IMG/VR virus record: IMGVR_UViG_3300046820_000717
Coordinates: 1 to 28,628 of that record
Strand: one strand, 5' to 3'
Length of the DNA stretch: 28,628 nt
Source: a virus
Below, one piece after another: positions 621 to 28,628 of the stretch. The notes under the pieces are model-generated. The model ran no database searches. It was not told the DNA's origin and saw only the letters and a list, made by a program, of their open reading frames with translations. Within the stretch, counting starts at the first letter, position 1, and each line of letters starts with the position of its first letter. The position numbers were made by a program, and so were the translations under genes.

Positions 621-1049
621 TTAAATCTTCTCTACATTTACTCCTGCTTTTCTGAGAAATTCAATCCCTTGCACACTGCGATAATCGTTACGATAATAAA
701 CAGAATTAATCCCACTTTGATAGACCAATTTGGCACAGTCAATACAGGGAGCATGAGTAACAAACATTGTAGCACCATCGCTAGATACGGTAGATTTTGC
801 CACTTTAGCAATTGCGTTAGTTTCTGCATGAAGCACCTCGGGTTTTGTCCTTAGAACGGGTTTATCATTTTCATCAAGGAATTCAGATTCGCAATTGTTG
901 TCCCAACCGGAAGGCATTCCATTGTAGCCAATGGAGATGATGCGATCATCTTTTACAATAATCGCACCAACATGTAGTCTACGAGCCGTGGATAGTTCTG
1001 CGAACACCTCGGCCGTTTTCATATAAGCATCACGAAATTTTTGTTTCAT
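621..1049 (-). CDS. cd: dCMP deaminase
   Basis: Zinc-dependent deaminase that converts dCMP to dUMP and so feeds dTMP synthesis during phage replication. Counting from the ATG at 1049 (142 residues), the zinc and catalytic motif HAE is at 74-76 and the PCxxC motif, with Cys 102 and Cys 105, completes the zinc site. The N-terminal RRLHVGAIIVKDDRIISIGYNG block is typical of the ComEB/T4 Cd family. The start overlaps the ahpD stop as ATGA; the codon just upstream is TTG and is less likely to be used. No strong Shine-Dalgarno is visible, so translation is probably coupled to ahpD. Family assignment is secure. Allosteric control by dCTP/dTTP is known for relatives but cannot be read here. Confidence 0.93.
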   Translation of the reverse strand: MKQKFRDAYMKTAEVFAELSTARRLHVGAIIVKDDRIISIGYNGMPSGWDNNCESEFLDENDKPVLRTKPEVLHAETNAIAKVAKSTVSSDGATMFVTHAPCIDCAKLVYQSGINSVYYRNDYRSVQGIEFLRKAGVNVEKI

Positions 1050-1555
1050 CAACTATTCAAAACTTTAGCGGCACTATTCATTACTGCCGCAATTCGACCA
1101 ATATCACGGAGTTGTTCAACCGTGTAACCCATTTTTTTCAATCCATCATAGTGTGCTTTCACACAGAAATGACATTTACCAACAATACTTGCGGCTAAAC
1201 TATATGCTTCAAAACGTTCTTTAGTTGTACCACCATGCGTAGAAATTGCATTCATACGCAACTGAGCAGGCAAACCTTCTAGTTGAGGATCATTAGTCAT
1301 TTCAACATAAGGATACCACACGTTGTTTTGAGCCATAAGACTTGCTGCTGTCATAGCCGCATTAGCTTCAACAGGTGCATCAGCAAGAAGTACACCCAAT
1401 AGTTTTCCATTACCAGTTGCGGCAAGAGCGGCTACAGCACAACCCATAGCCGTGTCAACGTCAAGGGAACTACGCAAAAGAACCGCATCAAGGTTTAACT
1501 TGGTATCTTTTGCGTAATCCGGCAACGCTTGTTTTACAGCGTCAATGAATGCCAT
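1049..1555 (-). CDS. ahpD: AhpD-like alkylhydroperoxidase
   Basis: 168-residue carboxymuconolactone-decarboxylase/AhpD fold protein. The redox motif CHFC spans residues 128-131. Glu 116 and His 135 flank it at the same spacing as the Glu-Cys-Cys-His proton relay of mycobacterial AhpD (12, 3 and 4 residues apart). The segment LRMNAIS before the active site matches the family LRMN block. In Mycobacterium AhpD reduces AhpC and is itself recharged through dihydrolipoamide-linked enzymes; here the gene directly follows ahpC with a TAATG overlap, so the two products are expected to work as a pair in the cytoplasm. It ends in an ATGA overlap with dCMP deaminase. The source of reducing power in the infected host is inference. 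Confidence 0.88.
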   Translation of the reverse strand: MAFIDAVKQALPDYAKDTKLNLDAVLLRSSLDVDTAMGCAVAALAATGNGKLLGVLLADAPVEANAAMTAASLMAQNNVWYPYVEMTNDPQLEGLPAQLRMNAISTHGGTTKERFEAYSLAASIVGKCHFCVKAHYDGLKKMGYTVEQLRDIGRIAAVMNSAAKVLNS

Positions 1556-2112
1556 TACAGTGTTTCTCCACCAACAGTACGGTTACATGCACACAATTCA
1601 CCAGTTTGTAGTGCATCGAGTACACGCAGGGTTTCTTCTGGTGAACGACCAACGTTCAAGTTGTTTACAGTAACGTGTTGAATGACGTTATCTGGATCAA
1701 CAATGAATGTTGCACGGAGTGCGGCACCAGCTGGAGCATAAAATACTCCTAGTTGTTCCATCAAGCTCTTGCTTTCGCAGGTAGCTGAATCGAAACGTTG
1801 CGTATCGGCAAATTGTGTGTGAGTGATTTTCTGTAGGTCGGGATGTGCCTTTTGCCATGCAACCTTACAGAACTCGTTATCTGTGCTGCCAGTCAAAAGG
1901 ACGGCATCACGATCTTCAAAGTCCTGTGTAAGTTTATCATATGCAACAATTTCAGTTGGACAAACAAACGTAAAATCTTTAGGGTAATATACAATTACCT
2001 TCCACTTACCTTCAAAACTTTTTTCTGTAATATCGAAAAAAGCATCCGCAGGTTGACCAGGTTTAACACCAGTTACAACGAACGGTTCAAGAGTATCACC
2101 AACTGTTTTCAT
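1555..2112 (-). CDS. ahpC: AhpC-type 2-Cys peroxiredoxin
   Basis: Thiol peroxidase that reduces hydrogen peroxide, organic hydroperoxides and, in relatives, peroxynitrite. The 185-residue protein has the peroxidatic cysteine in FTFVCPTE (Cys 51). Its C-terminal GELCACNR places two cysteines at 174 and 176. This Cys-X-Cys tail is the arrangement of mycobacterial-type AhpC, which uses AhpD rather than AhpF as reductant; E. coli-type AhpC ends differently. The downstream partner ahpD overlaps by TAATG. The start ATG at 2112 has a good AAGGA site eight bases upstream. It lies directly downstream of the tRNA gene and may share its promoter. Length and motifs look intact, so the enzyme is probably active. 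Confidence 0.93.
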   Translation of the reverse strand: MKTVGDTLEPFVVTGVKPGQPADAFFDITEKSFEGKWKVIVYYPKDFTFVCPTEIVAYDKLTQDFEDRDAVLLTGSTDNEFCKVAWQKAHPDLQKITHTQFADTQRFDSATCESKSLMEQLGVFYAPAGAALRATFIVDPDNVIQHVTVNNLNVGRSPEETLRVLDALQTGELCACNRTVGGETL

Positions 2113-2136: not shown

Positions 2137-2211
2137 TGGTCCGGGGTAGAGGAATCGAACCTCTATTAAGGGCTTAGAAGACCCCTGTATTATCCATTAT
2201 ACGAACCCCAG
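2137..2211 (-). tRNA. tRNA-Arg (anticodon UCU)
   Basis: A complete 75-base cloverleaf folds on the minus strand. The acceptor stem CTGGGGT pairs with ACCCCGG (one G-U pair), followed by discriminator A and an encoded CCA at 2137-2139. The D stem is GTAT/ATAC, and the anticodon stem GGGGT/GCCCT closes the loop CTTCTAA. The variable loop has four bases, and the T arm is AGAGG-TTCGATT-CCTCT. Anticodon TCT reads AGA and AGG arginine codons, which are frequent in AT-rich phage genes; T4 carries the same isoacceptor. A NATAAATA-type octamer lies six bases upstream. Confidence 0.95.
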
Positions 2212-6013: not shown

Positions 6014-6361
6014 TCAGATTTTACGCCAAGTGTCATTCTCTTTGACGTATAGTTTGCCGTCAGGACCTGGTACAATATTAACTGAAACACGTTTTTCTGT
6101 ACCTGGTTTGTAATTTGGACCAGTACCAATAAAAATATAGTTTCCATAAATAGTCTGTTGCGGTGGTAATTCTTCACCATACGTTGCATGTAATTGCAAT
6201 ACGGGTTTACCTTCAAGCTGTTTTTCCAACTCAACGGTTGGTAGTTCGTCTTGCTTATATACAATTCGATCTTTAACTTCTTTATAACCAGCAACACCAG
6301 TCAAAAAAAGGCCTGAGATACCCAGGCCTTTCACAAAATTTCTACGATTGGTATCGTTCAT
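6014..6361 (-). CDS. Unknown protein with twin-arginine-like leader
   Basis: Not a recognised family. The 115-residue protein begins MNDTNRRNFVKGLGISGLFL. The N-R-R-N-F-V-K block matches the twin-arginine (Tat) signal S/T-R-R-x-F-L-K, and a hydrophobic stretch (about 12-25) ending TGVAG follows. The remainder is soluble, with LPTVELEKQLEGKP and a C-terminal PGPDGKLYVKENDTWRKI that reads like a beta-structured domain. There is no cysteine or obvious cofactor motif. It lies between the DsbA-like gene and gene 44, inside an otherwise replicative operon, and overlaps the DsbA-like stop by ATGA. Export or membrane anchoring through the host Tat pathway is inferred from the leader alone. Confidence 0.65.
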   Translation of the reverse strand: MNDTNRRNFVKGLGISGLFLTGVAGYKEVKDRIVYKQDELPTVELEKQLEGKPVLQLHATYGEELPPQQTIYGNYIFIGTGPNYKPGTEKRVSVNIVPGPDGKLYVKENDTWRKI

Positions 6362-9231: not shown

Positions 9232-10551
9232 TTATCTACCAACCTGGGTTAGGTACTTTTCTTTTGTCTCTTCCCAGGAAAGGTAAATAAGGTCATCGTA
9301 GAACAGTGATTCATAAGAAACATTGTTCTTCTTTTGCAGTTGGCGAATACGACCTTTTGCATACTTGGCTTTCCAAATATCCGAAAGTGCTTTTTCGCTT
9401 GTATCAAAAGACTTGACCAGGTCTTTTTCTGCAATTTCACCACGTAGGAATTCACAGGTGTTATCATACAATGGTGAAAAATAGATACCTCGTTGGTGAT
9501 CGGTACGTGTCAGTTCTTTGGGAATACCCAGTTTAGGATATGCAAAGTGTAAAGAACGGTTTTTGTGGTCACGTTTGAAAGGAAGACCATTCTCTTTCTT
9601 TGCTTCCCACCATTCGAAATACTTTTCAGGATGGTTTTCTTTCAACCATTCCCAGATCAGGTTGAGAGTTGACTTTCGTGGTTCAAACGCAACAGATCCA
9701 CTAGAGAATCCCATTTTTTGCCAGTATTCAAGATTGTCATACTGTGATAGACCGTTGGACTTTGTGTTACCATATAAAGAAGTGGTAGTAACACCGACAA
9801 GAATATCTCCATATTTTTCCTTCCATAGACGTTGAACAGTATCAGATAAGCACAGAAGTGCAAGAAGTTTTCCACCCATGTAATTATAACCGAGCGGCTG
9901 TAGAGGAACAATCGATGAACCAATGGCAGTATAATTAATCATACCACCTTGCGTTTTCTTTTCACGTTCCCAACCAATGTACTTATCACGTGGAGTAAGG
10001 TCAAGAAAATCAGATGAAATGCAAACGACACCAAGGTATTTACCGGTGACTTTATCGGCAACCATGAAGTTGAGATTTCGACCGATGTTTGAATTGTTTT
10101 TCATTGTCGAAATGAATGTGCGAACGGTGTTCCAACGTTCAGGTAGATCAGAACGTTTTGTCTTTTGTTTCGCAGTAGTACCATCAAGCAAAAGACGTTC
10201 GATTTCTTCCGAATCATCGGTAAAAATCATAGTCGGTTCTAGCTTTTCGAAATCATCAGGAGATTCTGGAATCCAAATGTTAGATTTAACTTGACGAATC
10301 ATGTCACCTTGTTCAGGATTGTCCAGTGTTTTACCTTCAAAAAGGTCATCATGTGCAGGATATTTTTCCTGAATTTCACACCATTTCTGATACAGTGTGT
10401 ATTCTTTAACATCCATGCTGGACGCATACGTCAAATCTTTGATAAGTATGTTCTTCAGTTCGGCTTCATCTACATTTTTTGTGGGTGGGTTTTGCTCTTT
10501 CCACTTTTCCCAATCTTTTTTAACGTAGTCCGGCCAGTTGTTTAGAGACAT
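9232..10551 (-). CDS. DUF4338/DruA-like protein
   Basis: Large protein, 439 residues from the ATG at 10551. The central region carries blocks I associate with DUF4338, the domain of DruA in the bacterial Druantia defence system: KYLGVVCISSDFLDLTPRDK, then YIGW, a downstream NY...SSIVPLQP...GGKLLALL segment, VTTTSLYG, and SQYDNLEYWQKMGFSSGS. The first 130 residues are charged and helical, with Trp/Lys-rich LNNWPDYVKKDWEKWKEQ; the C-terminal third is unassigned. Starts at 10599 or 10551 both overlap the deformylase gene; the latter is preferred because it overlaps less, but neither has a convincing ribosome site. Family assignment is from memory of conserved blocks and should be read as probable. 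Biochemical function is unknown even for the family. Confidence 0.55.
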   Translation of the reverse strand: MSLNNWPDYVKKDWEKWKEQNPPTKNVDEAELKNILIKDLTYASSMDVKEYTLYQKWCEIQEKYPAHDDLFEGKTLDNPEQGDMIRQVKSNIWIPESPDDFEKLEPTMIFTDDSEEIERLLLDGTTAKQKTKRSDLPERWNTVRTFISTMKNNSNIGRNLNFMVADKVTGKYLGVVCISSDFLDLTPRDKYIGWEREKKTQGGMINYTAIGSSIVPLQPLGYNYMGGKLLALLCLSDTVQRLWKEKYGDILVGVTTTSLYGNTKSNGLSQYDNLEYWQKMGFSSGSVAFEPRKSTLNLIWEWLKENHPEKYFEWWEAKKENGLPFKRDHKNRSLHFAYPKLGIPKELTRTDHQRGIYFSPLYDNTCEFLRGEIAEKDLVKSFDTSEKALSDIWKAKYAKGRIRQLQKKNNVSYESLFYDDLIYLSWEETKEKYLTQVGR

Positions 10552-11173
10552 GTTTCGTTTTTTCCATGAGTTGTTTTTGTAACTTTCGGCGCTTATCAAT
10601 AAGTTTGCTACGCCTTTTCATTGCCATTTGAAGCGCTAACGGCTTTACAAGGTGAGTATACACCTTTCCGTTTAGATGGTCAAGCTCATGTTGGAAACAA
10701 CGTGCAGTTAAACCGGTATATTTGGCTTGCTTAGTCTCTCCGGTGAAGTCTTGGTATTCTACCAAAATTTCACTAGGTCTTTCCACAGAAAGGAAAAGAT
10801 CAGGATAAGTTAAACATCCTTCTTCCATTTTATCAATATTCTGGGAAGTCTCAATAATCCTAGGATTAAAGAAAGCAACATAACTGTCATCGTTACCCAT
10901 AACAAATACACGATGCTCATAGCCACACTGATTGGCAGAAAGACCAAGTGCGCCATGCTTCCTGCAAGTTTCAACAAGTGAACTGGCAAATTTGTTAGGG
11001 TCCACTGGTGGATTCGTAAAGTTAAATTGCGGCAAAGACTTACGCAATGCTGGATGAGTTTCCGGCACCAAAGGAAAAACTTCAATTTCTACTTTCTGTA
11101 TTGTCGTATCAGTCTTATATGGATTTGTGTCGATACGTATTACACTTAAATCATTTTTAAATTCATTATTCAT
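10520..11173 (-). CDS. def: Peptide deformylase
   Basis: Metalloenzyme that removes the N-formyl group from nascent proteins at the ribosome exit. All three family motifs are present: GLSANQ (77-82), EGCLTYP (118-124, Cys 120 as metal ligand) and HELDH (162-166). The N-terminal 35 residues are extra relative to short phage deformylases, and a basic helical C-terminus (MAMKRRSKLIDKRRKLQKQ) follows the catalytic core; such a tail could contact rRNA as in bacterial enzymes. It overlaps gene 46 by four bases. Deformylases are frequent in marine phages, where faster processing of phage or photosystem proteins has been proposed. Confidence 0.96.
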   Translation of the reverse strand: MNNEFKNDLSVIRIDTNPYKTDTTIQKVEIEVFPLVPETHPALRKSLPQFNFTNPPVDPNKFASSLVETCRKHGALGLSANQCGYEHRVFVMGNDDSYVAFFNPRIIETSQNIDKMEEGCLTYPDLFLSVERPSEILVEYQDFTGETKQAKYTGLTARCFQHELDHLNGKVYTHLVKPLALQMAMKRRSKLIDKRRKLQKQLMEKTKHVSKQLAGLR

Positions 11174-24494: not shown

Positions 24495-25394
24495 TTATAA
24501 TTCGGTCGTATATGCGTCTTCGGGGAACGCAACCGAAATATCAATAAGCGGATCTATTGCACAATACATAACTTTCAAAACTTCTGGATTCACAAGTATG
24601 TCCGTATTGTTAATAACTTCAAATACGGGTCCAGTTAAAGGATCAGCTAGACCTGATGATGTTGCAAGATTTTGCACCTCATTTGTTGTCAAGACTCTAT
24701 TGAACAGGCATACATGACCCATTGTAAAAAGATTTGTATTTGATGCCATACTAAATACTGAGTAATTGCCCAATGAAAAAACAGCAGCAGCGGATGTTCC
24801 TCCAGCAGGGTTATTGGTATAAGTATTTGTGGATATCAATCTACCATTAATATAAAGTAATATTGTTTTTGTAGCCGAGTCTCTTACGGTGGTAATCTGC
24901 CACGATGTAGTATCAATTAAAGATGAGTTAAGGTATCTAAGGTCGAGTATCGATGAAATATCTACCTGTTCATTTGTACCTCCAGAATATTCCCAGAGAT
25001 AGGTAAAATTTGAAGATGACGGATTAAAAATATGTTGTAAAAGAAAGTTTGTGGCAAGAGTTTCACCAACTGCACCAAATGCGATAGGATACAATAAAGT
25101 GCTGCTTATCGGGTTATTGAATTTAATGATATATGAAATAGACAGTGTTTCTAATGCTCCCGATATATTACCTCTAGTTGCATTTGCTGAAGAACCGGAT
25201 CCAAACTGTAAAAAGCTGGTGTTATCGTTTGGAATTAATTGTTGTCCAGCTGGTGTGAAAGTTCCAGAAGCAATCATTGGTCCAACCGTACTCGATCCCA
25301 ACTGTGCAAATGATGATCCAGAAGTCTCATCAAGTGGCCAATACACCAAAGGTGATAGCGACAGAATATTGGTTTTAAGTGCTTGACTGGACAT
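24495..25394 (-). CDS. LamG/jelly-roll structural protein
   Basis: 299 residues. The layout matches a concanavalin A/LamG-type jelly roll of the phage adhesin kind: SPLVYWPLDETSGS (about 14-27) at the start, a central set of strands, and the classic W-Q-I-T-T-V-R-D-S-A-T-K-T-I-L-L-Y-I-N-G-R block near residue 165, with HVCLFNRVLTTNEVQNL at the end. Such domains commonly bind carbohydrate. A short C-terminal part after GLADPLTGPVFE (about 255-299) is separate. It lies downstream of the collagen-like fibre cluster, so a host-attachment or fibre-accessory role is likely. No chaperone motif is evident. Confidence 0.75.
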   Translation of the reverse strand: MSSQALKTNILSLSPLVYWPLDETSGSSFAQLGSSTVGPMIASGTFTPAGQQLIPNDNTSFLQFGSGSSANATRGNISGALETLSISYIIKFNNPISSTLLYPIAFGAVGETLATNFLLQHIFNPSSSNFTYLWEYSGGTNEQVDISSILDLRYLNSSLIDTTSWQITTVRDSATKTILLYINGRLISTNTYTNNPAGGTSAAAVFSLGNYSVFSMASNTNLFTMGHVCLFNRVLTTNEVQNLATSSGLADPLTGPVFEVINNTDILVNPEVLKVMYCAIDPLIDISVAFPEDAYTTEL

Positions 25395-27078: not shown

Positions 27079-28628
27079 TTACACCTCTATGGCGGAAAAT
27101 ACCGCTTTCCATGAAATCGTTTTTCCTGAAACGCCTGTTACAAAGACGCCTATACTTCCAGTGGAATTGTTTGCTCTAACGTCAACTAACATATTCGAAT
27201 CTGTTCTGACGATTACAATTTCATAGAGTGAACCAATATCAGAAACCGTGTCGTTTGTATTTGAAACTAATCCTTTAATTGCCCACGAACCATAATCGCC
27301 CGCAGAATCGGTTCTTTTGCATACAACATCCACAGAGTATCCAATTGTTGTATTCAATGCTACTGGTATTCTGAGATTGTTTATACCATCAATGAACAAC
27401 TCAGTTTCATTTTGGTTGTTTGTTGTTGTACTTAAAACGAATACGTTGGAAAAACCTACGCTACCGCTGTTGTTATTTAGCAAGCCTTCGGTATCCGTTA
27501 AATCTGATATGTCTGTTGGTATTGTTGGCTTGTTTGTTAAATTATTATAATCTGTGGTGCCAGATGGTCCTGTTGGTCCTGTCGGACCTTGAGTGCCAGC
27601 GGCACCAGATGGTCCTGTTGGACCTGTTGGTCCGGCAACACCAGAAGGACCTGTTGGTCCTGTTGGACCGCTTACAGTTGAAGCAGCACCAGATGGACCT
27701 GTAGGACCTGTTGGTCCGGCAACACCGGAAGGACCTGTAGGACCCTGAACACCTGCAACACCGGAAGGACCTGTTGCTCCCTGTAAACCTTCAGCACCAG
27801 ATGGACCTGTAGGACCTGTTGGACCGCTTACAGTAGAAGCAGTGCCGGAAGGTCCAGTGGGTCCTGTTGGTCCGGCAACACCGGAAGGACCTGTGGGACC
27901 TTGAGTGCCAGTGGTGCCAGCGGCACCAGATGGACCTGTAGGACCCTGTAAACCTTCGGCACCAGATGGACCTGTGGGACCTGTGGGACCTGTGGGACCT
28001 TGAGTGCCAGCGGCACCAGATGGACCTGTAGGACCTTGTAAACCTTCGGCACCAGAAGGACCTGTAGGACCTTGTAAACCTTCGGCACCAGAAGGACCTG
28101 TAGGACCTTGAGTGCCAGCGGCACCAGATGGTCCTGTAGGACCAGTTGAGCCTCTGGCGCCAGCAACACCAGAAGGTCCTGTGGGTCCTATTGATCCGGC
28201 AACGCCAGAAGGACCTGTGGGTCCTGTTGGTCCCACAGAACCTGAAAATATATTTTCGTTTGAACCTACTTGAGGATTTGCTGCAACCCATTTCTTTTTG
28301 GTTGCGTCATACGTTAGCACCTGTAGATTGGTGGCATTTTTCAAACTTTCTTTATCGGTATCACCTAAATCGTTCAACCAATAAGAACCACCGCCTGTAT
28401 CACCACCCCAACCACTATAAGATTTTGAAACAGATTGAGTTACCTGTTGCTTATATTTCTGTAAATCATTCTTTACAGTATTTTTAAATTCATTAAGAGA
28501 GTTTTCAATTGACTTTAAATCGGCATCTTTTCCAGGATCACCTTTGTCTCCCTTTTCACCCTTTTCTCCTCTATCACCCTTCTCACCCCTATCACCTTTT
28601 TCGCCCTTAAGACCAATTGGACCAATAT
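27079..28628 (-). CDS. Collagen-like fibre protein (5' end outside window)
   Basis: The frame is open to the window edge, so the start lies upstream and the protein is at least 516 residues; a start near 28377 would be a TTG inside a continuous frame and is not real. In order: a charged collagen-like stretch ([16 protein letters not shown], ending near 28531), a helical linker ([20 protein letters not shown]), [20 protein letters not shown], and a second long collagen-like region of about 228 residues built from GPTGPSG units. The fibre-type block [20 protein letters not shown] follows, then a C-terminal beta domain that may fold or bind receptor. Trimeric triple helix is expected. It is probably a tail or head fibre. 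Confidence 0.9.
27559..28242 (-). repeat. Degenerate tandem repeat encoding collagen-like Gly-X-Y
   Basis: 684 bases of short repeats encode G-P-T-G-P-S-G with spacers such as A-E-G-L-Q or V-A-G, and two A-S-T-V-S interruptions. Units of 18-36 bases recur almost exactly, which favours slippage and length change. Frames on other strands are shadows of this repeat. Confidence 0.9.

Follow-up and report, generated by a model that had tools for sequence, protein, structure and literature searches.

What an ahpC-ahpD gene pair could do for a T4-like phage, and where the phage obtained it, are the questions raised by a stretch of 28,628 bases that makes up a whole IMG/VR record (here called the window). 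Both genes lie on its minus strand. ahpC (1555..2112) encodes a typical 2-Cys peroxiredoxin of 185 aa with a peroxidatic cysteine, C51, and two resolving cysteines, C174 and C176, in a C-A-C tail, while ahpD (1049..1555) encodes an AhpD-type dithiol reductase of 168 aa in which E116 is followed by the motif C128-H-F-C131 and by H135. Further cysteines are found at C82 and C112 in AhpC and at C39 in AhpD. The end of ahpC and the start of ahpD, read directly from the sequence, share one base in a TAATG overlap (1553..1557, minus strand; ...CTG TAA/TG), through which translation of the two genes is likely coupled. The end of ahpD meets the next gene of the run, coding for dCMP deaminase (621..1049, minus strand; ATG start at 1049; PF00383, 1.7e-22; phrog_174, 7.1e-52), in a second one-base overlap of the form TGATG (1047..1051, minus strand; ...AGT TGA/TG). 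On the other side, a tRNA-Arg(tct) gene (2137..2211, minus strand; ARAGORN and Rfam) ends 24 bases before the ahpC start. These ORFs, the catalytic residues of both proteins, the TAATG overlap and the run into dCMP deaminase had all been described in an earlier note on this DNA, and each was recovered at the same position. The T4-like setting named in that note was likewise borne out by the window genes for RegA, the clamp loader gp62/gp44, the clamp gp45, gp46/47, a helicase and the major head protein.

Family models place both proteins in their general classes. AhpC matches Pfam AhpC-TSA (2.2e-20; 73.3 bits against a cut-off of 26) and stays below the curated cut-off of TIGR03137, the AhpF-partner type of AhpC (109.9 against 272 bits), indicating that it is not of the enterobacterial AhpC subfamily. 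Its PxxxT/SxxC active site (P44, T48, C51) and distal arginine (R133) are present, and C174 and C176 align with the tail of Mycobacterium tuberculosis (Mtb) AhpC. AhpD exceeds the cut-offs of Pfam CMD (2.4e-10) and of the TIGR00778 core domain, and matches TIGR00777 (AhpD) over its full length (1.8e-32), yet below the curated cut-off (112.6 against 192 bits). The top solved structures by sequence are Mtb AhpC (2bmx, 1.3e-39) and Mtb AhpD (1gu9, 1.8e-20). An AlphaFold model of AhpD built from 15 phage sequences, of moderate confidence (mean pLDDT 75.9, pTM 0.76), gave Mtb AhpD 1knc as its first Foldseek match (E 7.5e-8, TM ~0.75 over 170 columns); as modelled, AhpD has the full-length, two-half, all-helical AhpD fold.

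The earlier note had gone further and assigned to AhpD the proton relay known from Mycobacterium. This relay consists of five residues in Mtb AhpD, E118, C130, H132, C133 and H137, of which the His132 position varies within the family (PMC3141380). Residues E116, C128, C131 and H135 of the phage protein align with E118, C130, C133 and H137, so that four of the five are kept, whereas H132 is replaced by Phe130 (C-H-F-C versus C-S-H-C), with His129 standing one residue earlier. As for the wider label of mycobacterial-type active sites, the nearest solved structures are from Mtb; the sites themselves are those of the general AhpC/AhpD class, and the ancestry of the pair, as described below, lies in the Burkholderiales.

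The pair had been called unusual in a T4-like phage. Its distribution was examined among cultured and uncultured phages. No record in INPHARED (50,697 cultured-phage records) encodes the AhpD of the window, and AhpC finds matches there of no more than 35% identity, short pieces aside; many of these matches are short unannotated records. One such match, annotated as 'peroxiredoxin' in Microcystis phage MaAM05 (MW495066.1), lies beside rplA, rplK, nusG, secE and sugar-acid catabolism genes (35487-45930), and this region is probably bacterial sequence. Scans of IMG/VR, in contrast, gave at least 599 confirmed relatives of AhpC and at least 599 of AhpD, with identities to the window of 86–91% for AhpC and 81–92% for AhpD among the best 80 of each; as relatives were selected for their similarity to the window, divergent or single phage copies may have been missed. 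The pair is thus absent from cultured phages as sampled, but it is common in uncultured ones, and commoner than first thought.

Both genes were found on the same strand, with ahpC first, in 150 of 153 IMG/VR loci, a set in which the piece from the window itself (L001) is counted and some contigs occur twice, once per query. The three exceptions carry one gene in the retrieved DNA, and in two of them it lies near the end. ahpC and ahpD are directly joined in 69 of the 150 loci and are otherwise separated by up to 2.9 kb, mostly of small genes. The commonest intervening gene (21 loci; e.g. L086:10558-11208) is class-II-aldolase-like, as named by eye, and the second commonest (19 loci) encodes a small membrane protein. 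All 109 distinct phage AhpC sequences keep P44, T48, C51, C82, R133, C174 and C176, and E116, C128, C131 and H135 occur in every phage AhpD in which the region is present; no broken copies were found among the loci examined, seven short AhpD frames being ones that run off the end of the retrieved DNA. Scattered single genes with broken active sites, the pattern that the earlier note had named as refuting its reading, were therefore not seen. Contigs carrying the pair reach 358 kb, and a T4 portal gene is present in 14 of 24 records (the window and 23 records of 100 kb or more).

The closest cellular relatives point to the source of the genes. Of 300 genomes sampled from the Burkholderiales, the order to which Undibacterium belongs, 31 had an AhpD match (best identity 60%), as did 24 of 369 from its class and 19 of 299 from its phylum; nearly all of these cellular copies adjoin ahpC. 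In trees, the grouping that the earlier note had proposed to examine, the phage sequences form essentially one clade for each protein. For AhpC, the phage clade has 100% SH-aLRT support and lies within the Burkholderiales pairs; phage AhpD is a single clade that includes one bacterial row, L155 (97% in a quick tree, 93/73 in a careful one). An AU test did not reject a single clade of the phage AhpD rows without L155 (p 0.28), which leaves some doubt about placing L155 in this clade. The row comes from an 8-kb bacterial MAG contig (JAGWWC010000055.1) that ends inside a phage-type AhpD (L155:4992-5470) right after an isc operon. A phage iscS beside ahpD was considered as an explanation and ruled out, as iscS occurs in none of the phage loci examined; L155 reflects either faulty joining of the contig end or genuine transfer of a phage gene to a bacterium.

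The Burkholderiales operons, the nearest relatives in the trees, have the same two-gene order as the phage pair and differ from it in detail. Their copies are ~61–68% identical to the phage proteins for AhpC and ~45–60% for AhpD, and their genes are separated by gaps of 50–280 bases, whereas those of the window overlap. Fixed differences set phage AhpC apart: six residues are lost after G19, the CPC tail is changed to CAC, about a dozen positions are substituted, and a variable insert follows R106. This insert (residues 107-116 in the window) ranges from 0 to 12 residues and is very variable between phages in an AhpC that is otherwise nearly invariant; it is missing from the Burkholderiales AhpC shown in the alignment. 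The M. tuberculosis proteins share the C-X-C tail, the relay glutamate, the two cysteines and the histidine, but are much more distant (77 bits in phmmer for AhpD), and the ancestry of the phage pair is proteobacterial. Judged by these trees, the pair is host-derived and of Burkholderiales ancestry. As host-derived metabolic genes in a T4-like genome, nested in Burkholderiales trees, ahpC and ahpD are phage auxiliary metabolic genes. The hosts are probably Betaproteobacteria, as suggested by the major head protein, whose nearest relatives among named phages are the Methylophilales phages Melnitz (63%), and by betaproteobacterial tmRNA in related phages.

The best characterized of the near relatives offers a guide to function. 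In Burkholderia thailandensis, AhpC (peroxidatic Cys57, resolving Cys171/173) and AhpD (Cys131/134) draw electrons from SucB, Lpd and NADH and reduce H2O2, organic peroxides and peroxynitrite (PMC6626918). By its published residues that system has an N-terminal peroxidatic cysteine, two C-terminal cysteines and a C-terminal CXXC in AhpD, as does the phage pair, and since the corresponding residues are present, the reading with the best support is that the phage pair runs the same cycle. By analogy we infer that the phage pair reduces peroxides. In such a cycle, C51 of AhpC would attack H2O2, an organic peroxide or peroxynitrite and be converted to a sulfenic acid, which C174/C176 would resolve by forming a disulfide. 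That disulfide would in turn be reduced by AhpD through its C128-C131 dithiol, with E116 and H135 as the activating residues, and the lipoylated E2 (SucB) and Lpd of the host would recycle oxidized AhpD, consuming NADH. Coupled as they are, the two genes could supply additional peroxidase to the infected cell beyond the reach of host regulation, and so shield phage replication and thiol enzymes up to lysis.

The pair had also been called a complete peroxide-reducing unit. This description did not hold, since neither Lpd nor a lipoyl-bearing SucB was found in the 24 phage records. A search of these for a phage-encoded Lpd or lipoyl carrier yielded no lipoyl domain and no full-length Pyr_redox_2, only fragmentary matches to the latter with one record over the cut-off, so that the reductant most likely comes from the host; most of the records are fragments, and the missing Lpd and SucB are not proof of absence. 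Host thioredoxin, instead of AhpD, might reduce phage AhpC.

Taken together, we think it probable that in T4-like phages with probable betaproteobacterial hosts (Burkholderiales, broadly taken) ahpC and ahpD form an auxiliary redox module of host origin. What the sequences show directly is the residues, the pairing, purifying selection and ancestry; peroxidase activity, electron source, host and benefit to the phage are inferred. Phage auxiliary metabolic genes are already known, and ahpC itself has been reported as a virus-encoded metabolic gene related to oxidative stress in putative Microcystis viruses of Lake Erie (PMC12542629). Those viruses have a cyanobacterial host, and the accessible part of that report describes neither an AhpD partner nor a phylogeny. 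A literature search returned no paper combining ahpC, ahpD and auxiliary metabolic genes; as a pair, phage ahpC-ahpD is undescribed in the literature searched.

Comparisons among the phage copies bear on how the module is maintained. With a median pS of 0.65, near saturation, dN/dS was 0.072 for ahpC and 0.062 for ahpD, indicating that these are old genes under strong purifying selection. The genes around the pair differ widely between loci, and dCMP deaminase is not a constant neighbour; a fixed neighbourhood such as nrdAB-grx-ahpCD is accordingly not supported. Where pairs of loci share another gene, ahpC and ahpD are the better conserved: RegA is 68% identical against ~85% for AhpC and AhpD, dCMP deaminase 60% against 85% and 83%, and Hsp20 43% against 87% and 89%. 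The phage trees of the two proteins also conflict, the window grouping with L089/L095/L123 for AhpC (95%) and with L002/L003/L005/L032 for AhpD (92%). Varied neighbours, conflicting trees and better conservation of the pair suggest a mosaic but conserved cassette. A fuller version of this reading, which we regard as possible though rather unlikely, is that the pair is a conserved, exchanged peroxide-disposal cassette, most often under a promoter of its own and with a leader hairpin largely restricted to ahpC, that couples electrons from host lipoamide, Lpd and NADH to protection of the infected cell or to quenching of an oxidative response by the host. On this view, infected Betaproteobacteria would be a distinct sink for peroxide.

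The leader named in that reading was seen in most relatives, in which ahpC is preceded by an apparent sigma-70-type promoter (read by eye) with a short hairpin directly behind it, then by an A/C-rich stretch and a ribosome-binding site. The hairpin varies in sequence and lies 24–45 bases before ahpC (e.g. L083:6382-6443, L027:8006-8067, L007:9400-9461). A strict pattern of 3-base arms around GT-N1-3-AAACAC, scanned over 4.5 Mb-strands of phage loci, gave 67 matches, 56 of them at ahpC and mostly 24–27 bases before its start, against ~3 expected by a rough estimate; these counts include overlapping loci from a contig that was retrieved twice. Of 105 distinct ahpC leaders, 83 have a perfect 5-bp stem in the interval from -60 to -20; shuffled leaders gave 28, and among other leaders the stem is found in 245 of 660. 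As a whole, ahpC leaders fold less stably than other leaders do, which limits the claim to a local short stem. Within 48 ahpC leaders chosen for having the hairpin, the arms differ in sequence yet still pair (69% of cells paired, a value reached in 0 of 500 shuffles), and 26 two-sided changes were counted, a number reached in 1 of 500 shuffles. RNAalifold gave no consensus for the same 48 leaders because the hairpins are out of register. The likeliest role of the hairpin would be that of an mRNA 5'-end stabilizing element. A T4 late promoter (TATAAATA) before ahpC was rejected, being present in only 1 of 108 leaders. The ahpC of the window has no leader hairpin, and tRNA-Arg(tct) stands in place of the promoter-hairpin leader of most relatives.

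Two other accounts of the benefit to the phage were weighed. In the first, the pair mainly serves counter-defence, quenching peroxides, peroxynitrite or redox signals from an antiviral or abortive response of the host or of competing phages, and not the peroxide that ordinary metabolism produces. The reduction of peroxynitrite by the B. thailandensis pair (PMC6626918) and the wide, strict conservation of the gene set are in its favour, but with varying neighbours and no defence or anti-defence gene tied to the pair among the loci, we consider this improbable. We would give as small a chance to a role in thiol supply or redox control, in which the pair keeps ribonucleotide reductase, glutaredoxin and other thiol enzymes working, or acts as a chaperone or redox switch, and peroxide removal is secondary. 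Related loci do carry NrdB (41), glutaredoxin (41) and NrdA (37) within ~10 kb, and dCMP deaminase is the next gene in the window; however, glutaredoxin lies within six genes of the pair in only 6 of 103 non-redundant loci, and P44, T48, C51 and R133 are invariant, a full peroxidatic set that a non-peroxidase role would not require.

That the pair is contaminating, mis-assembled bacterial DNA or a recently captured passenger without function is very improbable: although at least one AhpC match in named phage records (MaAM05, for which contamination is accepted) lies in bacterial sequence and L155 is a bacterial contig ending in phage-type AhpD, the window pair sits on one strand amid T4 core genes, hundreds of contigs carry it and more than half of the records tested also have the T4 portal, bacterial AhpD, L155 apart, reaches no more than 60% identity, compared with 81–92% among the best phage loci, and the low dN/dS values argue against a passenger.

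Should the host-derived redox module prove active, uncultured T4-like phages in large number carry a two-enzyme peroxidase plugged into host lipoamide and NADH metabolism, and whether phages manage oxidative stress in infected cells becomes open to direct test, as working assays exist for the bacterial homologues of these two small proteins. The enzyme pair is ordinary-looking, while its setting is unexpected yet common, and collections of cultured phages can miss such a module entirely.

Several other features were observed along the way. A permuted tmRNA gene is present on the ahpC strand in 71 related phage loci (47 distinct sequences; L064:2218-2630, L070:2933-3383, L083:1532-1922, L065:3016-3452, L101:7402-7891 and 66 further loci), nearly always 0.06–6 kb upstream of ahpC; Rfam found none in the window. 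Four of them were recognized by Rfam as betaproteobacterial tmRNA (110–148 bits). Long tags of 23–31 residues, such as ANADTFDFSAMSFTGNTVRGAANESRFALAA, are predicted for 31 of the 47 distinct tmRNAs, and the remainder have ordinary tags, such as ANDEQFALAA. Within the window, a protein with a DruA (Druantia) domain (9232-10599, minus strand; PF14236, 6e-23) is encoded amid the T4 replication genes. A 115-aa protein without a family match (6014-6361, minus strand) starts with MNDTNRRNFVKGLGISGLFLTGVAG, which resembles a twin-arginine export signal. At the window end, a lectin-like protein (24495-25394) comes before a protein (27079-28377, minus strand) with collagen-like Gly-Pro-Thr repeats (PF01391, 1e-32).
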